This document shows, piece by piece, positions 3,320 through 31,244 of a stretch of DNA of 31,244 nucleotides; positions within the stretch are counted from its first letter, which is position 1; every line of letters begins with the position of its first letter. The notes beneath the pieces were generated by a model. It was not told the origin of the DNA. It saw only the letters and a program-made list of their open reading frames with translations, and did no database searches. Source of the DNA: Saccoglossus kowalevskii (Eukaryota; Hemichordata; Enteropneusta; Harrimaniidae). Both the position numbers and the translations under genes were made by a program. The DNA lies in the NCBI RefSeq assembly GCF_000003605.2, contig NW_003135845.1, positions 79,945 to 111,188 of the forward strand, written 5' to 3'.

Positions 3320-5140
3320 AACAAATTCAAGAAGTTTATTATTGCTAACAAAAAAAAAACGATCTATACGTCGGGTGCATCTATAATAATAATAATTCAA
3401 CCTCTGTATCGGCACCATGAAAACAGTAATACATATCATAAATTACATATTTCCTAATTAAAGCTGATGAGGTATTTCCCACAATCTCATTTATATTCAA
3501 TAGTGTATCACCAAAAAGGAAATTGAACATATAATTAAACCCCCCTGAAAGAAAGATATTCATTAGTAATGAAGATTCAACATTGTTTCTCAGTGAGGTT
3601 TCTAATGTTAAATAAAACTCTGAAAGTGGTAAATGTCTTCTGTGCCCTGATTGCAGACTCTGCAAGTTACATTACCCCTGTAATTTGTCCATCCCATTTT
3701 GTTACCTATCTAAAGAGTTTGACCTAATTTTAAAGGGATATTCCGTGATGGTCATTAGGATTCATTATGTAATTTTCTTTTTTAATATTTTTTTAACAGT
3801 AGTGTTTTCAAAGATTTCATCTTCTCTGAATTTTGTGTAAACATGTTTATTTCATTTTCTTCAGTTGTATGCTTATGCCTAAATATTTGTATGTTTTACT
3901 TTCCTAGTTTCCAAATTGTGTCATTTATGCGTAGTTTTTTGCCAAAATACATTATCTGTGACTTGGATTAGTTATAACTAAGTTTCCATTTACTGGCAAA
4001 CTGAGCTGCTATATTAAGCATACCTTTAAGTGTAAACATATGATCCTCGCATCTCATATCTTCCCTAAAACCTCCTTGAATTTCTCCCAGGATGTTTTTT
4101 CTTCAACAAATTTTCTTAACTTTGTTTCAATGACCTTACTGTACATTTTTGAAACACAGGAATTTAGAATGATACCTCTGTAGTTGTTCAGGTCCTTTGT
4201 ATCACCCTTTTTGTGGATTGGTTTTACAACACCCTCCTTCCAGCCATCATTTTCTTTTAGAAAATATTTAAAAAGTAGCGTTGATGTATGGGTTATTGCA
4301 TTGCCATCATTCCTAATGAATTCATTGACGATTTCATCAGGACCGCAAGCTTTTCCAGATTTGGTCGATTCCATTGCTTTTAGAACATCGTCCTTTGTCA
4401 TATCTATTGTGTTAATTACTGGAGAGTTTGTATCAATTTCCTTTTTAAAATATTATTCCAAAATCAATATAGTTCCTCACATATTTGATAAAAATTTGTT
4501 ACATTATTAATTTCCCTATTCATCTTCCCCATTCCAGTAATGTTTCAAGTTGTTCTTAATGACTTAATGGGTTTTTACTTTTGGTTAAAATGTCATAAAT
4601 GCATGTTTGGTTAGCATGATTTTTAAAACCTTTCAAATTTTGCTGAAACAGTGTTGTCGTTTTTGAATTAATTAATGTTTGTGCTTTCTTTTTTGGTCAA
4701 TATAATTGGACCATAGCATATCTCTATTTCCAAATGTCTGAATTGTCTACATGCTTCTTTTCTTTTATTTATGACATCTCCTATCTATTTGTTTCTCTCC
4801 AACACATTTGTTTGCAACTCTGTCTTCCGATGCCATGCTATGATTACATCTTTTCCACTGTTATCAATCTTCCAGTCCCCAAATATGTTTGACAGCTCTT
4901 CCTAGAAAGGTTCCCATTCCTGATTGTAAGTTATATTCCATTTTCTATGATTTGTGTAATAATTAGAAACCTGATTGAGGTGCAAAATCATGACATTGTG
5001 ATCAACAGATTTTCTAAGTGACAACTAGATTTATCATCTACTATAAATTTCTTTGCATTTTCTGAATCGCAGCAAAACTATATCAGTTTCTGGCCATTAT
5101 ATTTTTTGGTGATTTCAGCATCTTTGATAAAATCGCCTAC
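3320..5140 (-). mobile_element. Minus-strand LINE remnant (endonuclease end, RT start, C-terminal end)
   Basis: Reading from 5140 down, a degraded end of the endonuclease (about 5140-4980) is followed by the linker (NHRKWNITYNQEWEPF). The N-terminal RT block at 4401-4054 has KACGPDEIVNEF, IHKKGDTKDLNNYRG and an ILNSC box. The next recognisable segment (about 4040-3850) is already past the catalytic YADD box (AAQFASKWKLSY, then MYFGKKLRIND), so palm motifs A to C are deleted. A zinc-binding C-terminal piece, CRVCNQGTEDIYHF, lies at about 3690-3620. The 3' end is near 3320. The 115-residue open stretch at 4401-4054 is the longest. The linker resembles that of the minus-strand LINE at 27-30 kb, which suggests a related family. 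The clade is not resolved. Confidence 0.8.
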
Positions 5141-5142
5141 TC

Positions 5143-5430
5143 TATATGGACTATCATATCACCTCTATGCCGATGATACCCAGTTATACATATCATTTCA
5201 ACCAAACTCAGTATATGATTGTGACATAGCTATGACTAATCTTAAGGATTTTGTCAGTGAACTGAAAGATTGGATGTACTGCCATAAGATAAAACTAAAT
5301 CCTGAGAAAATAGATATTTTAGTTTTTGGCATGCCTCAGTAAATTAAGAAATTAAATTTGATTTCCCTCTGTCAGGAATGATGTACGTAATCTGGGTGTC
5401 ATGTTAGTCAGGTGACAAAATCATAATTTT
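5143..5430 (+). mobile_element. CR1/L2-like LINE reverse-transcriptase scrap (YADD box)
   Basis: A short plus-strand piece encodes GLSYHLYADDTQLYISF, with the catalytic YADD at 5166-5177. It continues through LKDWMYCHKIKLNPEKIDILVFG to a final VRNLGVML at about 5375-5410. The order YADDTQLY - WM..KLNP.K - LGV is the palm-to-thumb transition of CR1/L2/Jockey-superfamily RTs. Nothing of the same element is recognisable on either side. It starts within a few bases of the end of the minus-strand LINE. It is a separate, heavily truncated insertion or a rearrangement remnant. Confidence 0.75.
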
Positions 5431-5599
5431 ATCATCTGTATAGGATTTTCCAAAACAAAAAACTACTATTATTGTTCATACTGATGTAAATGTAAATGTA
5501 AAGTGTAACAATTTGAAGAAGGAAATACTTTGGATTACATCAGCAATTAAAAAGTCAATTAAGAAAAAACATACCGTACATCACAGTTTTAAAAAGTAA

Positions 5600-6860
5600 T
5601 CACGTCTCTCGAAAAGGCCCAAACAATATTCCCGGAAACTATATGCCAATCTTATTAGCAGGGTTCTAGAAAAAATAGTTAACAAACAACTACTGCATTA
5701 TTTGGATAAAGAGAAAATTCTTTACAAGCATCAATACGGGTTTTGTAATAAATTCAGCACTAAGCTTTCCCTAATAAATTGAGGGACAACATCAAAAGTT
5801 CAATGAAGGATAAAAAACTTAATTCCTTTAGTTCCCCCCCCCCACACACACACACACCTCCCACTGAAACTTAATTGATAAATATTGATCATGGCGACCC
5901 ACCCCCAAACTAAAGCAGATCTTTTGACGTCGTCCCTTAATAAACACACTACTTCTTCAAATTGACGATGACAAGCCAACTATTGGAATATTTATCGATT
6001 TTACAAAAGCTTTTGATACTATTAATCATACAATTTTGCTGGAAAAAATGGGTCATTATGGTATACGTGGGCGTCCAAATAAGTGGTTTAAAAGTTATCT
6101 AGAAGATAGATCACAATTCATTTTTTTTTCAAATTGTGTTTCATCTGGGCAACTTCCTGTACCACAAGGTTCAGTACTTGGCCCTACCTTATTTCTTTTG
6201 AACATTAATGATTTCCCAATGATTTTTTGTTAACTTCAGACTCTTTGTTTTTACCAGGGGCAGATATTGATTTGTGTATTATTAACAAATATTTAAACAG
6301 TGTTGTACACTGGTGTGATGCAAATAAGTTGACCATCAATTTTTCAAAAACAAATGATATGATCATCAGTGGTAGGCGTATGTGTGTGACTGTAAGAGGT
6401 GCCCTGTCCATAAAAAAAAACAATGTAGTATATGAGACTGAATTAGCAACTTTCGTAGGGGTGGAAATTGATAAATATCTGACCTGGGATAACCACATTT
6501 CAAAAATCAATAAAATTGTTAGGATTGTTAAAATTAAGACATTATGTCCCACGTCATATCTTTCTTTTGTTATACAAAATGTTGTTTCAGCCTCATGTCA
6601 CCTATGGATTAGAAATTTGGGGTAGTACATACCCGTCACATCTTAAAGTTATACATACCACACAAAAAAGTTTTTCGACTTTACTGCACATGCTCCACCA
6701 ATTTTTAAAAGTCTCCAAATTCTTGATGTTTTTAAACTTCATAATTCATTACTTTTAAGTTTTATGTATAATATAATTCATGAGAATCTCCCACAATCAA
6801 TGTCAACATACAATTTGCGGGAGCCGACGCTGAGGAAATACAATTCACGTCGGTCATCGT
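5600..6860 (+). mobile_element. CR1/Jockey-superfamily (Daphne-like) LINE, RT to C-terminus, 5'-truncated
   Basis: The copy begins inside the RT fingers (NLISRVLEKIVNKQLLHYL, then KHQYGF). It continues with IFIDFTKAFDTINHTILL (about 5970-6040), YGIRG, VPQGSVLGPTLFLLNIND, then HWCDANKLTINFSKTNDMI, FVGVEIDKYLTWDNHISK and the C-terminal QPHVTYGLEIWGS region. At the place of the catalytic (F/Y)ADD box (about 6225-6250) only a degraded LTSD-like reading remains, so the enzyme is dead. A frame change near 6225 and another near 6540 separate the open pieces. A 159-bp MITE sits at 5779-5937. It is closely similar in layout to the LINEs at 10.7-14.3 kb and 22.7-26.8 kb. Confidence 0.88.
5779..5937. 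mobile_element. 159-bp MITE with AGGGAC inverted repeats inside the LINE RT
   Basis: The ends are inverted repeats. The left end reads AGGGACAACATCAAAAG from 5782, and the right end reads, on the opposite strand, AGGGACGACGTCAAAAG. It is flanked by TAATAAA at 5772-5778 and again at 5938-5944 (8 bp if C/T at the first base is allowed). Removing the element plus one flank restores an unbroken LINE frame, KLSLINTLLLQIDDDKPT, which confirms the boundaries. The inside holds a C tract followed by (CA)n at about 5830-5860. The 7-8 bp duplication would fit hAT-like mobilisation, but no transposase is present to assign it. Confidence 0.85.
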
Positions 6861-6959
6861 CGATCTCGTGTGTGGTACTACTCACTTCAAAAACAGAACA
6901 AATTTATCTCTCTGTACTCGTAGACATACATTGTACCCCCACTTCGTTTATCGCATTTG

Positions 6960-8390
6960 CTTGGATAAATCACCTCCGGTTAAACTCACTTCATCAACAC
7001 GATAGATGTTTTTTCTGTTGTTGTAGGATAGTTGCCACCAAAGGTACAAGAGCTGGTGATAGGTGCCCTATGTGGATGGTTTATATGTGGCTGGTGTTGT
7101 ACGTAGGCTGTAGTTGGCAGTACTTGGTGGTTAACACATGGGAGCTGGTGGCTGTTGCATTCTGGAAGGTGGTGTATCTTGCGTTATGAGAGGTGCTGGT
7201 TCTTTTCTGATGAGTGGATCCTGCTATACCACCGACTGTGAGTGTTGTTGTGGCAGCTCTTCCACACTGTATATATGACTAGTTTCAATAGATGAGACTT
7301 TGGGATGTTCATCTTCTACATGTATTGTAGGATGGTGTGCTTGTTTTCTGTTCAGGGTTAAGTTCAATTTGTTGACTGAGGTGAGAGCATGTTTTTGCTA
7401 TTCTTTCACAGTGATTGAATTAAATTTGGAATTCAGTAAGTCAAACTTGTATAAAAATTCTCTCATGCATTGATTGATTTCATCCATGTCACTTTAACAC
7501 TTGTTTTGACATCAGTGCAGTTATCATGAAAGGATTCTATTTTTGTAGATTATCCCATCAAGGTTATATTTATGTTTTTTTGGCTGTGTTGGAGTTGTCG
7601 TGTATTCCTGGTCAGAAATATCACAAGCTTCATGGCGTAAAGCATTATTTTCATTACGTTCAGGTGGTTGATCATCATCAGTTTTGATTATTTCATATAT
7701 CTTATCAAGAGTTTCATCTTCATTTGTAATAAATGTGTTGTCATAGATGAAGTTTCCACAACGTTTTAGGGGTTGTGTTATTGTGCTGGTAGTTTGTTAT
7801 CAGTTGGTTGGTCTTCACATTTTCCTGGGGGTTCTGGAATTGGGTCAGTGTCCTTGTCTTCACGAAGAATGTCAGGTGCACCATGTTGCTGTAAATAGTA
7901 CTTGGCACCATCCAGTGAATTAAATCATATATGTAAACAATGGCTATATATCCATCAACTTAACTGCCAGCTACCAGCCAGCTTTTAAAAACTCCACATT
8001 TCATTTCTCTGGCAAATGCATAATAACTATAAGAGCTCCTATTGGTCTTGCCATGAATTCTTTGGTTGCCATCGTTTTCCTTGCTGTGGTCATTATTACA
8101 TAGCAGACTAGGATTTACATGTGGTGCCCATGTGTCATCATTTATAACACACGTATTAATGCTGATTGAACGGTCATCAGGTATGGGATGTCACTGTTGA
8201 TAGTGAAGAGAGTACATACACACTGGTATTCTGTATTCCCTCAGAATCATCTGGTATACAAGTACAGAGATTATCAACAACTTTGTTACATTGTTTATTC
8301 CTTTTGTCTTGGCCCCCTTTGTTCTTTGTTGAATTTGTTGTTTGGGTAGCCATCTTTGTTCCTTTGTATCTGTCTTCTCTGACTCCATTG
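6960..8390 (-). pseudogene. Decayed ORF with RNase H1-type hybrid-binding (viroplasmin-like) domain
   Basis: On the minus strand a coding-like region runs leftward from about 8390, with candidate starts at 8388 and 8353. It has a Lys/Asn/Gln-rich N-terminus, then at about 8030-7880 a match to the N-terminal hybrid-binding fold of RNase H1. YYAFAREMKCGVFKSW is followed, six residues on, by VDGY, and then by FNSLDGAKYYLQQHG. The spacings (YA-7-GVF, W-6-VDGY, VDGY-4-Y, then FNS..AK.YL) equal those of the family (yeast RNH1 has GIY, W, VDGY, FNS...AK.FL). After it come an acidic linker, a helical stretch around about 7480-7300 and a Pro/Gln/Thr-rich tail to about 6960. The frame is interrupted several times. 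No RNase H catalytic domain is seen. It is most likely a transposon ORF (perhaps a LINE ORF1); a host RNase H1 relic is less likely. Confidence 0.6.
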
Positions 8391-8454
8391 TTTTTGGTAA
8401 TGGACAGGAATAATACTCAATTTACTTCATTCACACTTGAATAGTAACCAAAAG

Positions 8455-8930
8455 ACTATTGACTATTGTACTGTACTGTACTGAACTTATATGTATTGTA
8501 TAGCTAGATCACCATTTTTCTAACCAAGATGCTTATGTAAGACTGCATTCTGAATTTTTGTAACTCCAATAGCATAAAGTCATTCCACTGTACACAAAAC
8601 TCAGGGTTTTATGTTTTTCAGCTATTGAGGTCTTTTCTCTTTTACACCACTCAAGAGATCTTCACCAATGGTTCTTTACACATTCATGTTGATGTTGTAG
8701 TTAGTATAGTATCATATTATATTAAGAAAAAGTGGTAATTTTAATATAAGTCTGGAGCTGATGGTGCTAGTTACATTACGACCAAAATGCAAAATAGTAT
8801 ATATCCCCTGGAAAACTCACCAATGTATAAAAATAACAACGTTGATTAATTCCAAATTATAGAGAAATATATAACTTTGTTCTTGTCGGCTGATGACATA
8901 ATTTGTTAGGAAATCCTATTGATATTGTTG
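8455..8930. other. AT-rich spacer, nothing recognised
   Basis: About 475 bases without a convincing reading frame, terminal repeat or RNA gene on either strand. A TGTACTGTACTGTACTGAA run near 8465-8485 is a short 5-bp-step repeat only. It may be flanking host DNA or an eroded 5' region of the neighbouring LINE. Confidence 0.5.
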
Positions 8931-10219: not shown

Positions 10220-10672
10220 AAGGGGGTCTAAAAACTAACTTTGCGACGAATGTTGATTAGTGCACTCTGCGAAAGGGACGCAGTGTCAGTCTGCAAAGAC
10301 CACGATTACCATTTGTTGGTTGGTAGAAAAGTGTGAACCCCAATGGTCGATCGATGCCCATATTATTTCTTTATTTACAGTGTAAGGGTTTACCGCATTC
10401 CTTTAAAAATTAAGTTTTAAGTGGTTCCTAGTATTTCGCCGACTGCTCGCGAATTACGGTAAACAAGTATGTACCAGCGACATGTCGCACTGTTCGGTGA
10501 TCGGCAAGCACATGGAAGACAAGTTATGGGACCAAACAAATGTCACATGGTTTACGGTGATTAGACACATCACACCGCTGGCTAGAAAAGTGAAATAGTG
10601 TAACGTGCACGTTGGTATTGACTGCCTATTTACGCATCTTGGAGTTGTAAGGCTTCGTCCCGACGACTATGC
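10220..10672 (+). repeat. Left terminal inverted repeat, outer part
   Basis: This matches the minus strand of about 16506-16034 with scattered substitutions and small indels. Shared blocks include CACTCTGCGAAAGGG near the end, CCAATGGTCGATCGATGCCC, GTTCGGTGATCGGCAAGCAC and CACACCGCTGGCTAGAAAAG. It ends at CGACGACTAT, where the LINE begins. No ORF is expected here; it could be taken for the 5' UTR of the LINE, but the right arm shows that it belongs to the DNA transposon. Confidence 0.88.
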
Positions 10673-11461
10673 CTAAGTGTGAAGAGTGTGCTGCAACCAG
10701 AGGAGTTAAACTAACACAAGGTGACTTGCTTTTATGTAAGAAGTGTGAGTTGATCAGATACCCTCAACAAAACCGCAATATGGATTCAATCATGGAAAAG
10801 CTAAACAAGATCAGCACTGATACTACTGAACTCAAAGCATTACAAGCTGAGGTAACAAAATTGATACAATTTATGAACAAGCAATTTGAAGACATGAAAA
10901 CCAAGCTAAACATTTTACAAGATTCAAATACCAGTCTTAGGAAAGAGAATGATGAGCTAAAGGAAAGAGTTGGTGGTCTGGAACAAGAGGTAACTGACTT
11001 AAATCAATACCACCGCAGGGTTAACCTTGAAGTATTCCGGAAACACCCAATGGAGAAGAGAATACAGACAGCGCAGTTCTGAACATATTACAGAAAATTG
11101 ATCCAGAAATAACAGCAAATGAAATAGATATAACTCATCGCATAGGTACAAGAAAATCAGGAACCATGGCGACCCGAAGTGAGGAGAGACAACAACCACG
11201 ACCGAGGCCTATCATTGTAAGATTTACCACCAGAAGACGACGTAACAGTATATATGACAAAAGGCGCAAACTTATCTCCACCAGAGATTTGGGATATGAA
11301 CAAAATAACAATATATACATCAATGAAAACTTAACTCCAGCTGGGCGATCTATATTAGGCAAGACCAATGCAGCAAAGAAACGGACAGGATATAAATTTA
11401 TGTGGACTTACAATGGGCGCATTTATGTGAAGAAGTCACCTGACCACAATACAAATTTATA
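10669..11461 (+). pseudogene. LINE ORF1 (zinc finger + coiled coil + RNA-binding-like C-terminus), one frameshift
   Basis: It starts at ATG 10669 with MPKCEECAATRG and then LLLCKKC, a CxxC...CxxC knuckle of the kind found at the start of CR1/L2-group ORF1 proteins. Residues about 38-115 form a coiled coil (LQAEVTKLIQFMNKQFEDMK, then SLRKENDELKERVGGLEQEV), followed by the conserved QYHRRVNLEV box. A single frameshift near 11031-11036 moves the reading into another frame, which continues IPETPNGEENTDSAVLNIL through EIDITHRIG and RPIIVRFTTRRRR to INENLTPAGRSIL and ends at 11461. This second half is the RRM-like/C-terminal region of L1-ORF1-type proteins. With the shift ignored the protein would be about 263 residues, a normal length. 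The start codon lies at the LINE-TIR junction. Confidence 0.85.
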
Positions 11462-11659
11462 AATACAGAAGCCGACATCAGTAAGATAATATAATGTTAT
11501 TGTTTTCTGTTTCTCCTCTTAAATTTTAGTTAAGCAATTTGTACATTCTCTTCAAATATGACTGCCAACCAAGAGATGAGAACAACTCATAAATTTCATT
11601 GTAAATCATATTCCGTTAATGACTGTAATACAGAATAGAATTTCCAAAACCTCCACGAG

Positions 11660-15940: not shown

Positions 15941-16506
15941 CACTCAACAAAGTCAGAGCTGACGTACAACATTCGTTGTAGAAAGTGTGAAAAGTAGTTC
16001 GCATTCCACTCTCTTTGAAGCTACCGCCTATGCTAATGAGCATAGTCGTCGGGACGATGCTTTACAACTCCAAGATAGCGTTATTGTTACACCGAAAATA
16101 GGTAGTCAATACCGACGTTCACATTACACTATTTCACTTTTCTAGCCAGCGGTGTGATGTGTCTAATTACTGTAAACCCATGTGACATTTGTTTGGTCCC
16201 ACAAATTGTCTTCCATGTGCTTGCCGATCACCGAACAGTGCAGCATGTCGCCGCCAGCAGTCGGCGAAATACTAGCAACCATTTAAAACTATTTTTTTCT
16301 ATAAGACATGCGATGAACCCTTACACTGTAAATAAACAAGTCATATGGGCATCGATCGACCATTGGTATTCACGCTTTCTACCAAACAGCCAATGGGAAT
16401 CGTGCTCTTCGCAGACTGACACTGCGACCCTTTCGCGGAGTGCAATAATCGACATTCGGCGAGTCGCACATTCGCGTCGCAGTTAGTTTTTAAAGCCCTT
16501 TACTTA
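15941..16506 (-). repeat. Right terminal inverted repeat (uninterrupted)
   Basis: This is the complete arm of the DNA transposon. Read on the minus strand it matches 10220-10672 and then, with no gap, 14348-14453. At the join it reads CGACGACTATGCTCATTAGC, which gives the approximate empty-site sequence for the LINE insertion. Small differences from the left arm are spread over the whole length, so both arms have been diverging for some time. Confidence 0.88.
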
Positions 16507-18360: not shown

Positions 18361-20185
18361 AAAACTTAGAAAGAACTCCCGTGTGCTGAGAGTATTGGAG
18401 ACACATTAAAATTAATTCAAAATTTAAGATTTGCTTTTCAAACAAGAAGCTTGGCAACTAATTTTTGTCTTCTATTTGAGATGCATAACATTATCAAAAT
18501 TTATAATACATACATTTTCTTCCATGTTTTTTAGTCTAATTAATTCCATAGCACCTCTGCGATGAATTAAATTTAAATCTGATTTTTTTTAGATATCAGA
18601 AATGGGCTAATAATAGATATTGATATGCATGTTTATCAACATTAAACTAATCATGTCTGTGGATTACTTCAATGAATCAAATGAATTATTATACAAATTA
18701 AGCCGTTATTATGCATAGATTTAGGTCTGTATATTGTTTCAGGGTGCACATGTGATGATTAATCCTAACTAAATTAGTGGAAAGCTGAAAAGTAAAGTAT
18801 TATGCAAATTAGATAATTATTATAGATGTACATAAACCTAAAACTAATTTGATCATCACATTGTCTTGTGTACATATGTACCAAGATTCATTGAATTAAG
18901 ATAAGTACTGTCACAGACCATCTATGTACGAAGTTTCATTGAAATGTAATTTGAACCAAAAATTATGATTTATTATGCAAATTAGGTAGTTAATATGATC
19001 TGATTTTAACCCAAAACTGAACGGGTCTGTGCAGTGTTCTGGAGCATCAATGTACCAAGTTTCATTGAAATGAAATAATTAGTTCATGTGATATCAATGT
19101 AAAAGCTAAAAATTGGCTAATTATGCAAATTAGGTAATTAATATTTCACATATCTGTCTGTACATCGTCCTATGTATCTAAGTAAGTGACGGTTAGTACC
19201 TGAGATATCAGCGGAAAATCCGAAAATTTACTAATCATTATGCAAATTAGGTTAATTATATGCATCGATGTTTACCTAGACTGGCCCAGCTGTGGTGATT
19301 TTTTTTTCAGTTAAAAAAATTTGAGAAAAATAGTTTTGCGAAAGGTGGGATGAACGCGAAACCACCACAGACTGGTCTTATTTGCAGCTAATCTGTTGCT
19401 ATTATTTATTCATGATATGCGGTGACATCACTGAACGGATACAGAAAAGGAGTGGGGGCGTGCGTGCTGCATAATGAGGTAAACATTGTGGGTCTTCTGT
19501 GCAGATCGCGCTTTATTGTAACCCAGGCGAGATAAAGCTACACACAGGCTTCTTCTCTCCATTAGAATAATTTGTACGGAATGTTACAAATAGTAATTCG
19601 TTTATTATGATTGACGATCGAGAAACTTGAAGAAAAGTGAAGTCTTCAGGTACAAAGGTTAACTAGATATAGTTTAAAGGTCAAATTACTCTGATTGGAT
19701 AACGTTCTTGCCTGTCATTCTGCTCATTAACATAAAAACTAGTATGAAAACACACTAGTTCCTGCTTTCATCACAGAGGGCGCGGCAAAAACGTCCAGTC
19801 TGGGTGATTTCGCAGTTACAGGGGATTTCGTGTTAACACCTCCATTTCACTATTTTTTTTATTTAATTTTAAATTTAAAAAAAAAAAATCGCCCAGACTG
19901 TACCAGTCTAATGTTTACCCAAAACCAATGAATGGCTCTTTAGATATCAGTGGAACAGTCAAGGAGCAGCTAAAAATTATCTGATTATCATGCAAATCAG
20001 GTAATTAATATGTATGGATTTCAACCAAACCCTGATAAAATCTGCGCATTATCCCAGTGCATATATACACCAAGTTTCATTAAAAAACAACATACGGTAT
20101 CAGTGGAACGAACAGACACACACATACACACACACAGGGTAACTGCAAAGACTCCCATTGTGTGCTTCGCACACGGAAGTAAACA
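18361..20185 (+). repeat. CAAATTAGG-core repeat, complete copy interrupted by a MULE-like element
   Basis: An AT-rich, non-coding element of about 1.2 kb once the insertion is removed. The second half is made of diverged tandem-like units sharing TTATGCAAATTAGGTAATTA (cores at about 18799, 18972, 19122, 19237 and 19987) and ACCAAGTTTCATTGAAATG. Core spacing is irregular, about 105-175 bp. It ends with a (CA)-rich tract at about 20115-20135 and a perfect hairpin, GTGTGC-TTC-GCACAC, at 20160-20174. The first part (18361-18875) is the inverted partner of 1-560. I recall similar CAAATTAGG repeats as common in marine invertebrate genomes, but cannot name the family. Confidence 0.75.
19277..19910. 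mobile_element. 634-bp MULE-like non-autonomous transposon with 9-bp TSD
   Basis: The termini are TAGACTGG...CCAGTCTA. The inverted repeats are about 100 bp (19277-19374 and 19797-19910) and share CAG.., GATTTTTTTT and, further in, a CCAGTCTG...GATTTCG block. Each arm is itself foldable, because GACTGG at its outer edge is mirrored by CCAGTC at its inner edge. The element is flanked by a perfect 9-bp direct repeat ATGTTTACC (19268-19276 and 19911-19919). Removing the element and one copy restores the host repeat unit (GATGTTTACCCAAAACC). Long TIRs and a 9-bp duplication point to the Mutator superfamily. There is no transposase; the 420-bp centre is non-coding. Confidence 0.85.
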
Positions 20186-27652: not shown

Positions 27653-28501
27653 TTAGGGTTTTTCTCTGTGCTGAGAAACATTCACAATGTAATATGAAAT
27701 GCTCAAGTGTTCAGGTTCCTTTTTGCAACATGGACAGATACAATCATTATTATCCAAGTTTGCCCATTTCCTTTTCTCATATGCCAAACCAAGAGTGCAG
27801 GATCTTGCCTTGAATTTTAATTGGGTGCCCTTGAAGTTGGATACAGAATTTAAATATTTTTCACAATATTTTAAATTTGTTTTAAATTTTCTATAATGAA
27901 CGAGACTTGATTTCTCTGCCATTTTCTGTTTCCATTGAATCTCGTCACTGTTTACAATCATATTTTTAATATTTCTTTCAGACAGATTAGTGAATTTACT
28001 TTTGTTTATCTTTATAGTTCTTTCTATATCTTCAATGCTATTTAGCCATGGCCAGGTCTTATTCAGATTATTCTCTTCTTTAACTGCAGTTAGTTTATTA
28101 AAAATAACTTTTGACCATCTGGTTGATTCCATTAAACACAACCGCCTGTAATAATTCAGTTTTAATAAACTGACTCTACTTTTCATAGTTATCCACCCCA
28201 GGTCCCCTACAACGGCTTCATTTGCTGTGTATCGACATGCTCCTAGAATAAACTTTCCCACTGTACGTTGCATTCTTTCTAATTTTTCCATATCTGTTGA
28301 ACTAAATATTAGTAACTCACAGGCATACTCTAAGGCAGGTCTAATAATGTGGTTCCACAGGGATATACCATAATCTACTCTATTCACATTGCCATGGTTA
28401 CCAAGAATTGATTTCATAATGGGGAATAACTTGTTAAACTGTTCAGACATTTTTGTACATTGTGTATGATCTGACAAGTTACGTGTAATCCAATAACCCA
28501 A
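27653..28501 (-). pseudogene. LINE ORF2 C-terminal region with zinc-ligand motif
   Basis: An open frame of 282 codons, the longest in the window, continuing YKYLGYWITRN after a shift just upstream. It contains YGISLWNHIIRPALEYACEL (RT thumb/connection: W.....P...YG.E.W type), MEKLERMQRTVGKFILGACR, and at the end ANLDNNDCICPCCKKEPEHL, a CxxC...H cluster with later cysteine seen at the C-terminus of many LINE ORF2 proteins. The frame ends near the 3' UTR at 27653. The open state of 282 codons suggests a younger age than the neighbouring Daphne-like copies. Confidence 0.82.
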
Positions 28502-28518
28502 ATATTTATACTTTTCTT

Positions 28519-29470
28519 TTATTTATATTTATAAGCTTCTTTTATCTTTGAGTTCCCAACCTGCCAATCTTTGATTTTGTTAACTTTCTTGTTAATGATC
28601 AACACGTTTGACTTTTCCTCATTAATTGTCATCTTCCATAGTTTGCAGAAATGGTTTGTGACATTTAACATGGATTTCAGTTGGTCCTCATTTGGTGCAA
28701 TAAGCACCACATCATCAGCAAAAAACAAGCCATTTATACAAATTCCATCTAATTTAACACCAAGTAGTGAATCATCTAACAGTTTTTTGAATTCATTTAT
28801 GTAAATTGGGAATAACGTTGGGGCTAAAACACATCCTTGTTTTAAACCCTCATTCTGTGAAAAATAATCTGTTTCAATATCGTCAAATGATACTTTACTT
28901 TCAATATGTTTATATATATTTTTTATTATACGCCATAATTTGCCCTTTACATCATTCTGCCATAGAGCATACCATAAACCTTCTCTCCAAATGCTGTCAT
29001 AAGCTTTTTTAAAATCTAAGAAGGCAAAATATGTATGCTTTTTCTGGTGTTTACGAATTGAAGCTATCCCATCTTTCTCATCCAAATTTTGATGACTTCT
29101 TTCACCCAAGTGTTCCCAATAATTTATCAAAACATTTTTAACTTTATCTTTTTCGATGATTAATTTATGTTCCTGGTCAAGTACAACTGAAGAATATGTT
29201 CTTTGTTTAGGACCCTTTAGAATTGACCAGTACTTTCGAGTTGATTTACCTCCACATTTACCAACCTCAATACACTGTTTAACTTTGTTTTCAATTTTTT
29301 TCTGTTTTATAAGATTTTGGACATTATTTTTATCTTCTAGATATTTATTCCATAATATTTTACCTTCATTGTCATGGTAACTGCTGCTGGTAAACTCTTT
29401 GTGTTTTTTATTTGATTTTTTTCTTTCAATTATTGCACTTTTAATTTCTTGATCAAACCATGGTTTAGCA
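28519..29470 (-). pseudogene. LINE ORF2, linker and reverse transcriptase (fingers deleted)
   Basis: The linker, 29470 to about 29090, reads KPWFDQEIKSAIIERKKSNK, then KYWSILKGPKQRTYSS and NVLINYWEHLGE. The frame then passes directly from HQNLDEKDGIASI to KKHTYFAFLDFKKAYDSIWR (motif A). The RT finger motifs (K.GPD, KKGD, NYR.I) that should lie between are absent, an in-frame loss of roughly 100 or more residues. Next come EGLKQGCVLAPTLFPIYINE, the catalytic FFADDVVLIAP (FADD at about 28712-28723) and LWKMTINEEKSNVLIINKK. The 203-codon frame 29130-28519 is open to its end; a shift then leads to the C-terminal piece. Confidence 0.85.
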
Positions 29471-30366
29471 TTACCGGTACTTGATGTATTTGTTTTTGTC
29501 TATAACCTCACGACATGTTTCAATTGTATGTTTTAACCACTGGTTCCAAACTTTATCACATGCTGATTGTTTATTTGTTTTATTAGTTGCCAAATGCACT
29601 GTATCATCAAAGGATGATAACTTGGTGGTTAATACATTTTGAAATTCATTCCAATCAGTGTTTTTGTTTATATCCCATTTTTGTTTTTTATTTATTTTGT
29701 GGTCTCGTTGTAAAGTTGGGATGTTTAGAGTGGCATACATATTATTGTGGTCACTACCAATATCAAATATTTTTTACCATTATTATTTACAGTTTTATCA
29801 CCTGAAATATTCCCAATTCTACCGTTAAAATCCCCTAGCAATAAATACTGATCATTTGATCCTTCTAAATTACTAATATTACTATATAATTCATGGTACA
29901 GTTCATCAACCCCATCCTTGTTTGTATTTTCTGGGGGAACATATACCACACATAAACTCAATGTTTGCCCTTCACCTACTTTTAATCTGATCCATAATCT
30001 TTCTATATCATCATCCTGTGATTGGAATAAATTATCGTCTATTATCTGGAAATTATTCTTAACTAAAAAACCGATTCCCCCACCACCCTTTTTTAATTTT
30101 AGTTTACGGTTTTTACCAAACCATTTGTAACCTTTTACAACTGGTGTTTTACTATTTTTGAGGAAGGTTTCAGTGCCTCCAAAAATGTCCAAATTTAGTT
30201 CCCTAAGCAGGGGGCTAAGCTTATGCTCTTTAGACCTCAGCCCTCTGAAATTTACATATCCTACCCGTAATGTTGATGCAAGTGATTTTGATTTGTTGGC
30301 TTTTCGTCTTATTTTATGGGTAGCTTTATGGCAGTTAGGACTGTTATATGAAACACTACTGGACAT
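29471..30366 (-). pseudogene. LINE ORF2, endonuclease and start of linker
   Basis: The endonuclease domain opens with VGYVNFRGLRSKEHKLSPLL (N-terminal strand of the fold), then ELNLDIFGGTETFL with the ET catalytic glutamate, GYKWFGKNRKLKLKKGGGGI, VVYVPPEN, and LLLGDFNGRIGN with the GDFN box at about 29830. ORF start candidates include the ATG at 30366; coding-like sequence continues upstream to about 30540 (QEECAGEKETLIEYLNQDQL), so this ATG may be internal. A shift near 29730 leads to 29740-29471 (DHKINKKQKWDINKNTDWNE), the endonuclease-RT linker. The distal endonuclease (S.IDY...) is missing or degraded. Confidence 0.83.
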
Positions 30367-30540
30367 GCATGTATGGCTTTGAGTTTTAACTACTTTATCA
30401 AAGAGAACATTTGAGTTTGTGGCATTTGGTAAAATTATATCATTCTTAAAAGTCTAATTAATGCCCAATTGGTCCTGGTTTAAATATTCTATAAGAGTCT
30501 CCTTTTCACCGGCACACTCTTCTTGGCCATTGTATAGTGT

Positions 30541-30905
30541 TAGCTAAAATAAAATAAAATAAAAACTATTTTATCACACTGTATCCGAGTAATTCTTTGG
30601 AACCTAGAGATAAAACCAGGGACCGGTTACACAAAAATATTATTTGCATACTTTTTTCCATCTGTCAGTTGTGACTAAATGACTACAAAAAGGTCCAGCA
30701 AGCATATATTTTTGGAATCGACAGGGTACAAGCTATCTACATTCTGTGACACGAGACACACTAAATTACAAAATATTGTATTACATCGCTATCCTTACAG
30801 TTTACTTACTTTACTTACTGGTACTTTCCAACATAGTAAAGGCTCTTGTGTCATTGGAAGCATAGCTAATTTTTCAATTATTTCAGGCTCCTGCAGTTGG
30901 CCGGC
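30541..30905. other. Spacer between LINE and minisatellite
   Basis: It begins with a short TAAAA repeat (about 30545-30565) at the 5' edge of the minus-strand LINE. The rest has no recognisable frame, repeat or RNA gene. Confidence 0.5.
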
Positions 30906-31244
30906 CATTAGCATAAACTTGCATGATTTTCGTGTACCCACCCTATCCATGCATCTAATTAGCATATACTTGCATGATTTTCGTGTACCAACCATATCCA
31001 TGCATCTAATTAGCATATACTTGCATGATTTTCGTGTACCAACCATATCCATGCATCTAATTAGCATATACTTGCATGATTTTCGTGTACCAACCATATC
31101 CATGCAGCTAATTAGCATATACTTGCATGATTTTCGTGTACCAACCATATCCATGCAGCTAATTAGCATATACTTGCATGATTTTCGTGTACCAACCATA
31201 TCCATGCAGCTAATTAGCATATACTTGCATGATTTTCGTGTACC
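30906..31244. repeat. 51-bp minisatellite (six full units plus part), running off the window
   Basis: Units start at 30917, 30968, 31019, 31070, 31121, 31172 and 31223 (last one cut by the window end), each 51 bp and nearly identical. Unit 1 differs most (CCCACCCTATCC for CCAACCATATCC). Units 1-3 carry GCATCTAATTAG and units 4-6 carry GCAGCTAATTAG, so recent duplications spread blockwise. Because 51 is a multiple of three, the minus strand stays open with a 17-residue repeat (MLISCMDMVGTRKSCKY). This is a repeat artefact, not evidence of a protein. There are no spacers of independent sequence, so it is not a CRISPR array. Confidence 0.95.

Follow-up and report, generated by a model that had tools for sequence, protein, structure and literature searches.

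Evidence for an RNase H1-type hybrid-binding domain in a decayed LINE ORF1 of the hemichordate Saccoglossus kowalevskii

What is the nucleic-acid-binding domain of RNase H1 doing among decayed fragments of long interspersed nuclear elements (LINEs)? The question is raised by a 31,244-nt stretch of the Saccoglossus kowalevskii genome (NW_003135845.1; henceforth the window), in which a sequence-only reading had marked positions 6960..8390 as a decayed, transposon-like open reading frame (ORF) with residues of the RNase H1-type hybrid-binding domain (HBD; PF01693, also Cauli_VI or RNase H1 N-terminal domain) at 8030-7880 of the minus strand. The window's own genome (572 Mb, 4830 contigs) was searched for relatives, which are named here by contig (C1704, C602, C11 and so on) and whose counts are lower bounds. 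Colinear copies show that the region is almost certainly the ORF1 of an old, inactivated APE-type non-long-terminal-repeat (non-LTR) retrotransposon, that is, a LINE of about 6 kb, whose predicted ORF1 protein comprises the HBD, a helical linker, a Pro-rich stretch, an SGNH esterase and CCHC knuckles, and whose ORF2 adds an APE endonuclease and a reverse transcriptase (RT).

The domain and the split element in the window

The HBD residues are present where they had been placed, at 8028-7881 on the minus strand, spread over two reading frames in three-frame translation; their internal spacing, which had been called exact, is so once a 2-nt offset between the halves is allowed and is not so in a single frame. 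The N-terminal half alone scores 13.1 bits against PF01693 (E 0.12), the sole Pfam family listed for the three frames tested. When the halves are joined across the shift and the stop is written as X, the match spans positions 2-43 of the 44-position profile and reaches 19.7 bits (E 0.0011), just under the curated cut-off of 21. The PF01693 search that had been proposed as a check is therefore failed by the window copy alone and passed by the 79%-identical copy on C1704, of which the first HBD half scores 32.7 bits and the second half also lies in a different frame from the first. Moreover, a frameshift-tolerant scan with a small five-sequence profile (HBDs of yeast and human RNase H1 and of C602, C3358 and C2124) places the top score of both window strands, 36.6, at 8028 minus; in 300 windows simulated with a first-order Markov model, the best scores average 5.4 (standard deviation 3.7) and peak at 15.8. 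On these profile matches, 8028-7881 is confirmed as a diverged, frameshifted RNase H1-type HBD. No RNase H catalytic domain had been seen beside it, and none is found by Pfam in the tested pieces of 6740-8422 (7480-7842 being covered in part of the frames only). The Lys/Asn/Gln-rich N-terminal extension that had been described is likewise present, in broken frames, and the three frames of 8040-8422 return just one weak Pfam match, DUF1376 at 14.4 bits (cut-off 30.1).

The surrounding pieces of the element, as they stand in the window, are as follows.

7011..8786, minus: decayed 5' part of the LINE copy, comprising the 5' leader and the first part of ORF1 (DNA match to C1704 and C11)
8029..8390, minus: Lys/Asn/Gln-rich N-terminal extension of ORF1 in broken frames (three-frame translation)
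7881..8028, minus: RNase H1-type HBD (PF01693), broken by a stop and a frameshift (Pfam, profile scan, C1704 copy at 32.7 bits)
7323..7775, minus: acidic, helical, possibly coiled-coil ORF1 linker (54% protein identity to a 199-aa open stretch of C11)
7006..7322, minus: Pro-rich stretch ahead of the esterase (matches residues 9-72 and 79-100 of a 262-aa open stretch of C11)
5145..7010, plus: LINE sequence that splits the element (RVT_1 at 5928-6233; C1704 comparison)
5061..5144, minus: APE endonuclease remnant of ORF2 (93% DNA identity with C1704:10425-10508)
4434..4990, minus: ORF2 connector between endonuclease and RT (77% DNA identity with C1704 within 4020-4990; protein match)
4010..4239, minus: RT fragment of ORF2 (66-87% protein identity with the C1704 RT)
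3381..4031, minus: 3' part of the element with an ATT-rich tail at its end (matches C1704:7555-8118 and 8661-8842, and C11:343505-343579)

The coiled coil in the linker is suggested by composition and weak sub-cut-off matches, not by a coil predictor. The unity of these pieces is read from a colinear minus-strand series, in which window segments 8786-7125, 7065-7011, 5144-5061, 4990-4020, 4031-3868, 3861-3443 and 3437-3383 correspond in order to C1704 segments 13589-11864, 11851-11797, 10508-10425, 10286-9183, 8842-8661, 8118-7655 and 7609-7555. Since colinearity runs from 8786 to 3383, the HBD frame represents the ORF1, and the minus-strand LINE fragment at 3381-5144 the ORF2, of one element; the link that had been drawn to a same-strand LINE fragment at 3320-5140 thus holds. 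At the 5' side, window 7125-8786 together with 7011-7065 matches C1704:11864-13589, with 79% DNA identity over 7125-8786 (about 1.7 kb), and the genome-wide copy search likewise gives C1704 as 79% identical over query positions 1-1326. The APE remnant shares 82% protein identity over 28 residues with the C1704 endonuclease, and the window frame 4054-4452 gives no Pfam match at E 1. Where the plus-strand LINE sequence stands, the window lacks about 1.29 kb of the element, corresponding to C1704 10508-11797, and within the 3' part a further 0.34 and 0.54 kb, approximately, of the ORF2 found in C1704 are missing. It is because the window copy lost that part of ORF1 that the SGNH esterase and the CCHC knuckles escaped the sequence-only reading.

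A third copy, on C11, retains ORF1 over the equivalent of window 7972 to 7007 (C11:344073-345111, 75% DNA identity) as well as the 3' end; the SGNH part of its 262-aa open stretch starts at about residue 140, and the esterase itself is lost from the window. The window, C1704 and C11 copies share one 3' end with an ATT-rich tail, beyond which the sequence differs in each. LTRs are absent, in that no direct repeat of at least 40 nt in the window flanks the element, and the 5' ends of these old copies are not sharply defined. The feature had been drawn too far in one direction: sequence of the element reaches down to about 7011, not to 6960, and 6900-7005 is a separate repeat that is common in the genome, 38 of the 42 rows of the copy search matching only that stretch. 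A BEN-domain or other DNA-transposon architecture, which was also considered for the C-terminal stretch, is rejected, as it has no Pfam support and 6900-7005 is that different repeat.

Relatives elsewhere in the genome and the architecture of ORF1

A PF01693 search of the genome yields 13 matches at 12 loci. Six of these (C1704, C602, C4226, C2124, C4008 and C3786) carry HBD, SGNH and APE in that order; in the first five an RT also follows the APE on the same strand, and C3786 reaches the APE at the edge of the examined DNA. Two more (C4341 and C2615) carry HBD and SGNH, the APE lying beyond the stretch compared or being absent from it, so that an HBD is followed by SGNH on the same strand at 8 of 12 loci, on different contigs. 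The host RNase H1 gene accounts for one locus (C1), where the HBD is divided between two exons and RNase H pieces lie downstream (25.4 and 21.8 bits; cut-off 25.8). The remaining three are left without a class: C3574, where no other piece is matched in 3.1 kb, and C2163 and C3358, which are interrupted by runs of N. Outside this list of 12, HBD loci are found in the window, on C11 (second half only) and on C2730. Hence the suggestion that the HBD belongs to a mobile-element ORF1 is supported, and the proposed check, whether related copies continue into an endonuclease-RT ORF, is answered positively by the order HBD, SGNH, APE, RT on one strand. Two scans of viral contigs with six peptide patterns each gave no relatives, as is expected for an animal LINE.

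The genome's best HBD (68.4 bits) is that of C3358:100360-100491. It stands some 40 residues behind an ATG in an open frame that a run of N cuts short, and could belong either to a young element or to a domesticated gene. The C2615 HBD resembles it by eye, and SGNH follows in C2615.

The fullest copy of the window family, C1704, has the order HBD, linker, Pro-rich stretch, SGNH esterase, two CCHC knuckles, APE endonuclease and RT, with the HBD at about 12.8 kb and the GDS block of the esterase at about 11.65 kb, followed by GTND and NNIH. Its CCHC motif occurs twice (zf-CCHC 19.1 bits, cut-off 20.8), and its ORF2 matches Exo_endo_phos_2 at 20.5 bits and RVT_1 at 21.9 bits (cut-off 29.6), both below cut-off and in order. 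In C11 the esterase region is open over 262 residues (Lipase_GDSL_2 23.9 bits, cut-off 32.9), and among solved structures this ORF1 esterase is best matched by PDB 4c1b, 'ORF1-encoded protein' (E 1.5e-5), which we take to be the ZfL2-1 esterase of PMC3905857. A diverged relative of the same family, C4008, has HBD, SGNH, one CCHC motif, APE and RT.

A second family, represented by C602, C4226 and C2124, is built of HBD, a helical stretch, SGNH and a Tyr-rich tail, followed by APE and RT. Here several pieces exceed their cut-offs, for instance the HBD (53.1 bits) and Exo_endo_phos (26.8 bits) of C602 and one of two RVT_1 matches in C4226 (45.1 bits above and 27.8 bits below cut-off). The C602 HBD is unbroken by an intron, profile positions 1-43 being read in one frame, and matches the solved N-terminal domain of yeast RNase H1 (1qhk, E 2.1e-9) and the human domain (3bsu, E 1.3e-6). 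Esterase blocks are GDS and GAND in C602 and GTND and DGIH in C4226; with the patterns used, GDS, GTND and DGIH are each canonical in some copies, and all three occur together in none. Several Pfam scores fall below cut-off, as is to be expected of broken pieces, and the argument rests on their fixed order.

The endonuclease upstream of the RT by which an APE-type LINE is recognized is found in the copies, with remnants in the window; the SGNH esterase in the ORF upstream of APE-RT that marks a type IV ORF1 is found in the relatives and is lost from the window copy. In an alignment of short blocks, the RT of C1704 and of the window has a YRGI-type rather than a YRPISLLP-type motif, which we assume here to be unlike CR1/L2. 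Pfam finds no RNase H in the ORF2 pieces tested from C1704, C602, C4226 and C2124, on either side of the RT, and the eight stretches tested from behind or around the RT (seven from these four contigs and one from a second LINE in the window) give just weak sub-cut-off matches, none of them to RNase H.

Some observations weigh against the assignment as a whole. No examined copy is intact over both ORFs. SGNH matches occur on many contigs without a PF01693 match, as do relatives of the ORF2 connector (e.g., C4611 and C216), so that members of this group may be able to do without the HBD. Window and C1704, a recent, decayed pair, show no visible constraint, the ratio of amino-acid-changing to synonymous change (dN/dS) being 1.36 (93 codons, partly out of frame). 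The fate of K60, described below, belongs to the same side of the balance.

An esterase-type ORF1 is in itself known from the CR1, L2 and RTEX LINEs (PMC3905857, PMC4120745, PMC5408684, as far as their available text goes). As in ZfL2-1 and the type IV ORF1 of those groups, the ORF1 described here stands upstream of an APE-RT ORF2 and places a helical region before the SGNH esterase; unlike them, it has an RNase H1-type HBD ahead of these parts, and the window family has CCHC knuckles as well. According to the available text of PMC3905857, in 2013 no esterase ORF1 protein in RepBase had a structural RNA-binding domain, and the mode of RNA binding was asked; this trait of the type IV ORF1 does not hold here, where there are an HBD and, in C1704, two CCHC knuckles. 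The available part of PMC4120745 lists no HBD among ORF1 domains and mentions neither RNase H nor viroplasmin, and no HBD in a LINE ORF1 was found in the literature searched, which lacks most subscription papers and does not extend to RepBase reports; judged by title and opening lines of the abstract, none of the papers there that name this domain family appears to deal with LINEs. Within that literature, the new observation is an esterase-type LINE ORF1 carrying the RNase H1 HBD. The combination suggests how esterase-type ORF1 proteins may hold nucleic acid, the question open in 2013 (PMC3905857, available text): the LINE families found here have a structured domain for binding nucleic acid, whose fold is known and whose binding preference is known from RNase H1.

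A LINE also joins the places in which the RNase H1 HBD has been reused. The viroplasmin domain of Caulimovirus P6/TAV belongs to the same Pfam family and also occurs in a reverse-transcribing element, of another class and with a different rest of the protein. Bacterial RNase LS (RnlA) contains a viroplasmin-RNase H module, for which its authors suggest, in the available text, that the HBD aims the protein at RNA:DNA duplexes (PMC3710099); like the LINE it exemplifies reuse of the HBD outside RNase H1, but it is a bacterial antiphage protein of unrelated architecture.

Conservation and possible role of the hybrid-binding domain

Codon comparisons between diverged copies rest on small codon numbers without error bars. 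When C602 is compared with C4341, C2124 and C3786, synonymous sites prove almost saturated with differences (0.73-0.79 per site). Amino-acid-changing differences per site in the HBD are 0.13 (37 codons), 0.22 (43) and 0.30 (40), respectively, against 0.31 (105 codons), 0.37 (149) and 0.46 (131) in the remainder of that 290-aa stretch of ORF1; the SGNH stretches give 0.29-0.41. Similarly, dN/dS between C602 and C4226 is 0.19 in the HBD (45 codons) and 0.72 elsewhere (213 codons). More distant HBD comparisons give 0.38 for C602 against C3358 and 0.35 for C602 against C2615. Judged by these substitution patterns, the HBD is the best-conserved ORF1 piece among those compared between diverged families and is under purifying selection between them.

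Key residues, in human numbering, were scored at five element loci (C602, C4226, C2124, C4008 and C3358). Y29 and W43 are both kept in four, the exception being C2124, which has F and a stop, respectively, at these positions; K59 is kept in all except C3358, where it is E; G38 is kept in all five and G34 in four. The element HBD thus resembles that of RNase H1 (human 3bsu, yeast 1qhk) in length and spacing, with G38, Y29, G34 and W43 mostly kept, and differs from RNase H1 in that no RNase H catalytic domain was found after it and that no scored locus retains K60, the position being G in C602, C2124, C4008 and C3358 and a stop in C4226. In C1704 the position is Arg by reading of the translation. 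In the human HBD, Y29 and K60 are among four residues needed to bind hybrid (PMC7657459, available text); since K60 is kept in no scored locus, the hybrid affinity of the element HBD cannot be assumed.

The ORF1 protein might work as follows, in a scheme that we hold about as apt to be right as wrong when taken as a whole. The protein would multimerise through its helical region, the CCHC knuckles would hold single-stranded element RNA, and the esterase may contact membrane lipids by analogy with the proposal for ZfL2-1. The HBD would provide a double-strand-specific grip and bind the RNA:cDNA hybrid left on a new insertion by target-primed reverse transcription, so retaining the ORF1 protein on the hybrid, which it might protect or hand over until the host removes the RNA. 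As no RNase H was found in the tested ORF2 pieces, a separate hybrid-binding part is plausible. According to the available text of PMC7657459, the human HBD, as well as fly RNase H1 and its variants, binds RNA/DNA hybrid more tightly than double-stranded RNA or DNA, and the yeast domain prefers double-stranded RNA. If the HBD does bind hybrid, it offers a direct handle on a stage that is poorly understood, namely the fate of the RNA:cDNA hybrid once the first strand has been made, in LINEs that show no RNase H of their own. The joint explanation, a LINE ORF1 with an HBD acting by its most likely mechanism, is considered probable. A further generalization is put forward tentatively, at a shade under even confidence: that the pairing of HBD and SGNH esterase, joined in one branch by zinc knuckles, defines a separate type of LINE ORF1 common to at least two diverged families, in which an RNase H1-derived domain grips the hybrid of target-primed reverse transcription and makes the ORF1 protein a hybrid-handling factor besides its part in RNA packaging.

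The explanation that competes best keeps the same element and gives the HBD another job, namely that of an RNA-packaging domain in place of an RNA recognition motif, which would bind double-stranded parts of the element RNA in a cytoplasmic particle, not the nuclear cDNA hybrid. ORF1 proteins generally form an RNA particle, which suits packaging. It is the main rival because the yeast domain prefers double-stranded RNA (PMC7657459, available text), and it also draws on the loss of K60 at all five scored loci and on the want of a known structural RNA-binding domain in esterase-type ORF1 proteins, a question open in 2013 (PMC3905857, available text); the preference of the human HBD for hybrid (PMC7657459, available text) and the CCHC knuckles of the window family (two in C1704, one in C4008), which would already offer RNA binding, count against it. 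We regard packaging as quite possible, with the greater chance on its being wrong.

An exon of a host RNase H1-like gene had been named as an outcome that would contradict the LINE assignment; such an exon, whether captured or overlapping, that happens to lie beside LINE fragments is very improbable. The genome does have such a gene on C1, with its HBD split over two exons ahead of RNase H pieces, and a fungal Helitron carries a PF01693 gene (PMC4289320, available text); but the element HBD in C602 has no intron, the HBD stands upstream of SGNH on one strand at 8 of the 12 PF01693 loci, the three compared copies differ in their 3' flanks, and no RNase H domain follows the HBD in the tested window pieces. 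The exon is rejected because the host gene lies elsewhere and the HBD recurs in the ORF1 of several elements. Chance resemblance in decayed sequence, to which the sub-cut-off Pfam score of the window copy might point, is negligible in view of the scan score of 36.6 against a simulated maximum of 15.8 and of the 32.7 bits in C1704.

Other features of the window

Apart from the split element, which in our reading is a LINE with an HBD-bearing ORF1, the window contains a second, better-preserved LINE ORF2 at 27653-30453 on the minus strand, with RVT_1 at 94.1 bits (28519-29499) and Exo_endo_phos at 23.7 bits (cut-off 24.5; 29725-30453); its ORF1 is not seen, and the contig ends at window position 31244. 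On the plus strand, 10651-11462 encodes the ORF1 of another LINE type, with a Cys-rich start, a coiled-coil-like part and Baculo_FP_2nd at 30.7 bits, and RT fragments continue to about 13956. GC-rich fragments at 987-2672 give the impression, from their translations, of a DIRS-like or tyrosine-recombinase element; one piece was tested and has no Pfam match. Repeats include a long inverted pair at 10244-10634 and 16093-16461 (some 370-390 nt, interrupted by small gaps; complementarity of the pieces 87-94%) and, near the contig end at 30856-31212, a direct repeat with 51-nt spacing, of which 153-nt stretches are 75-97% like the reference. Scattered repeats around a TTATGCAAATTAG-like motif occupy 18674-20026, a region that also matches stretches of C2124 and C4226.
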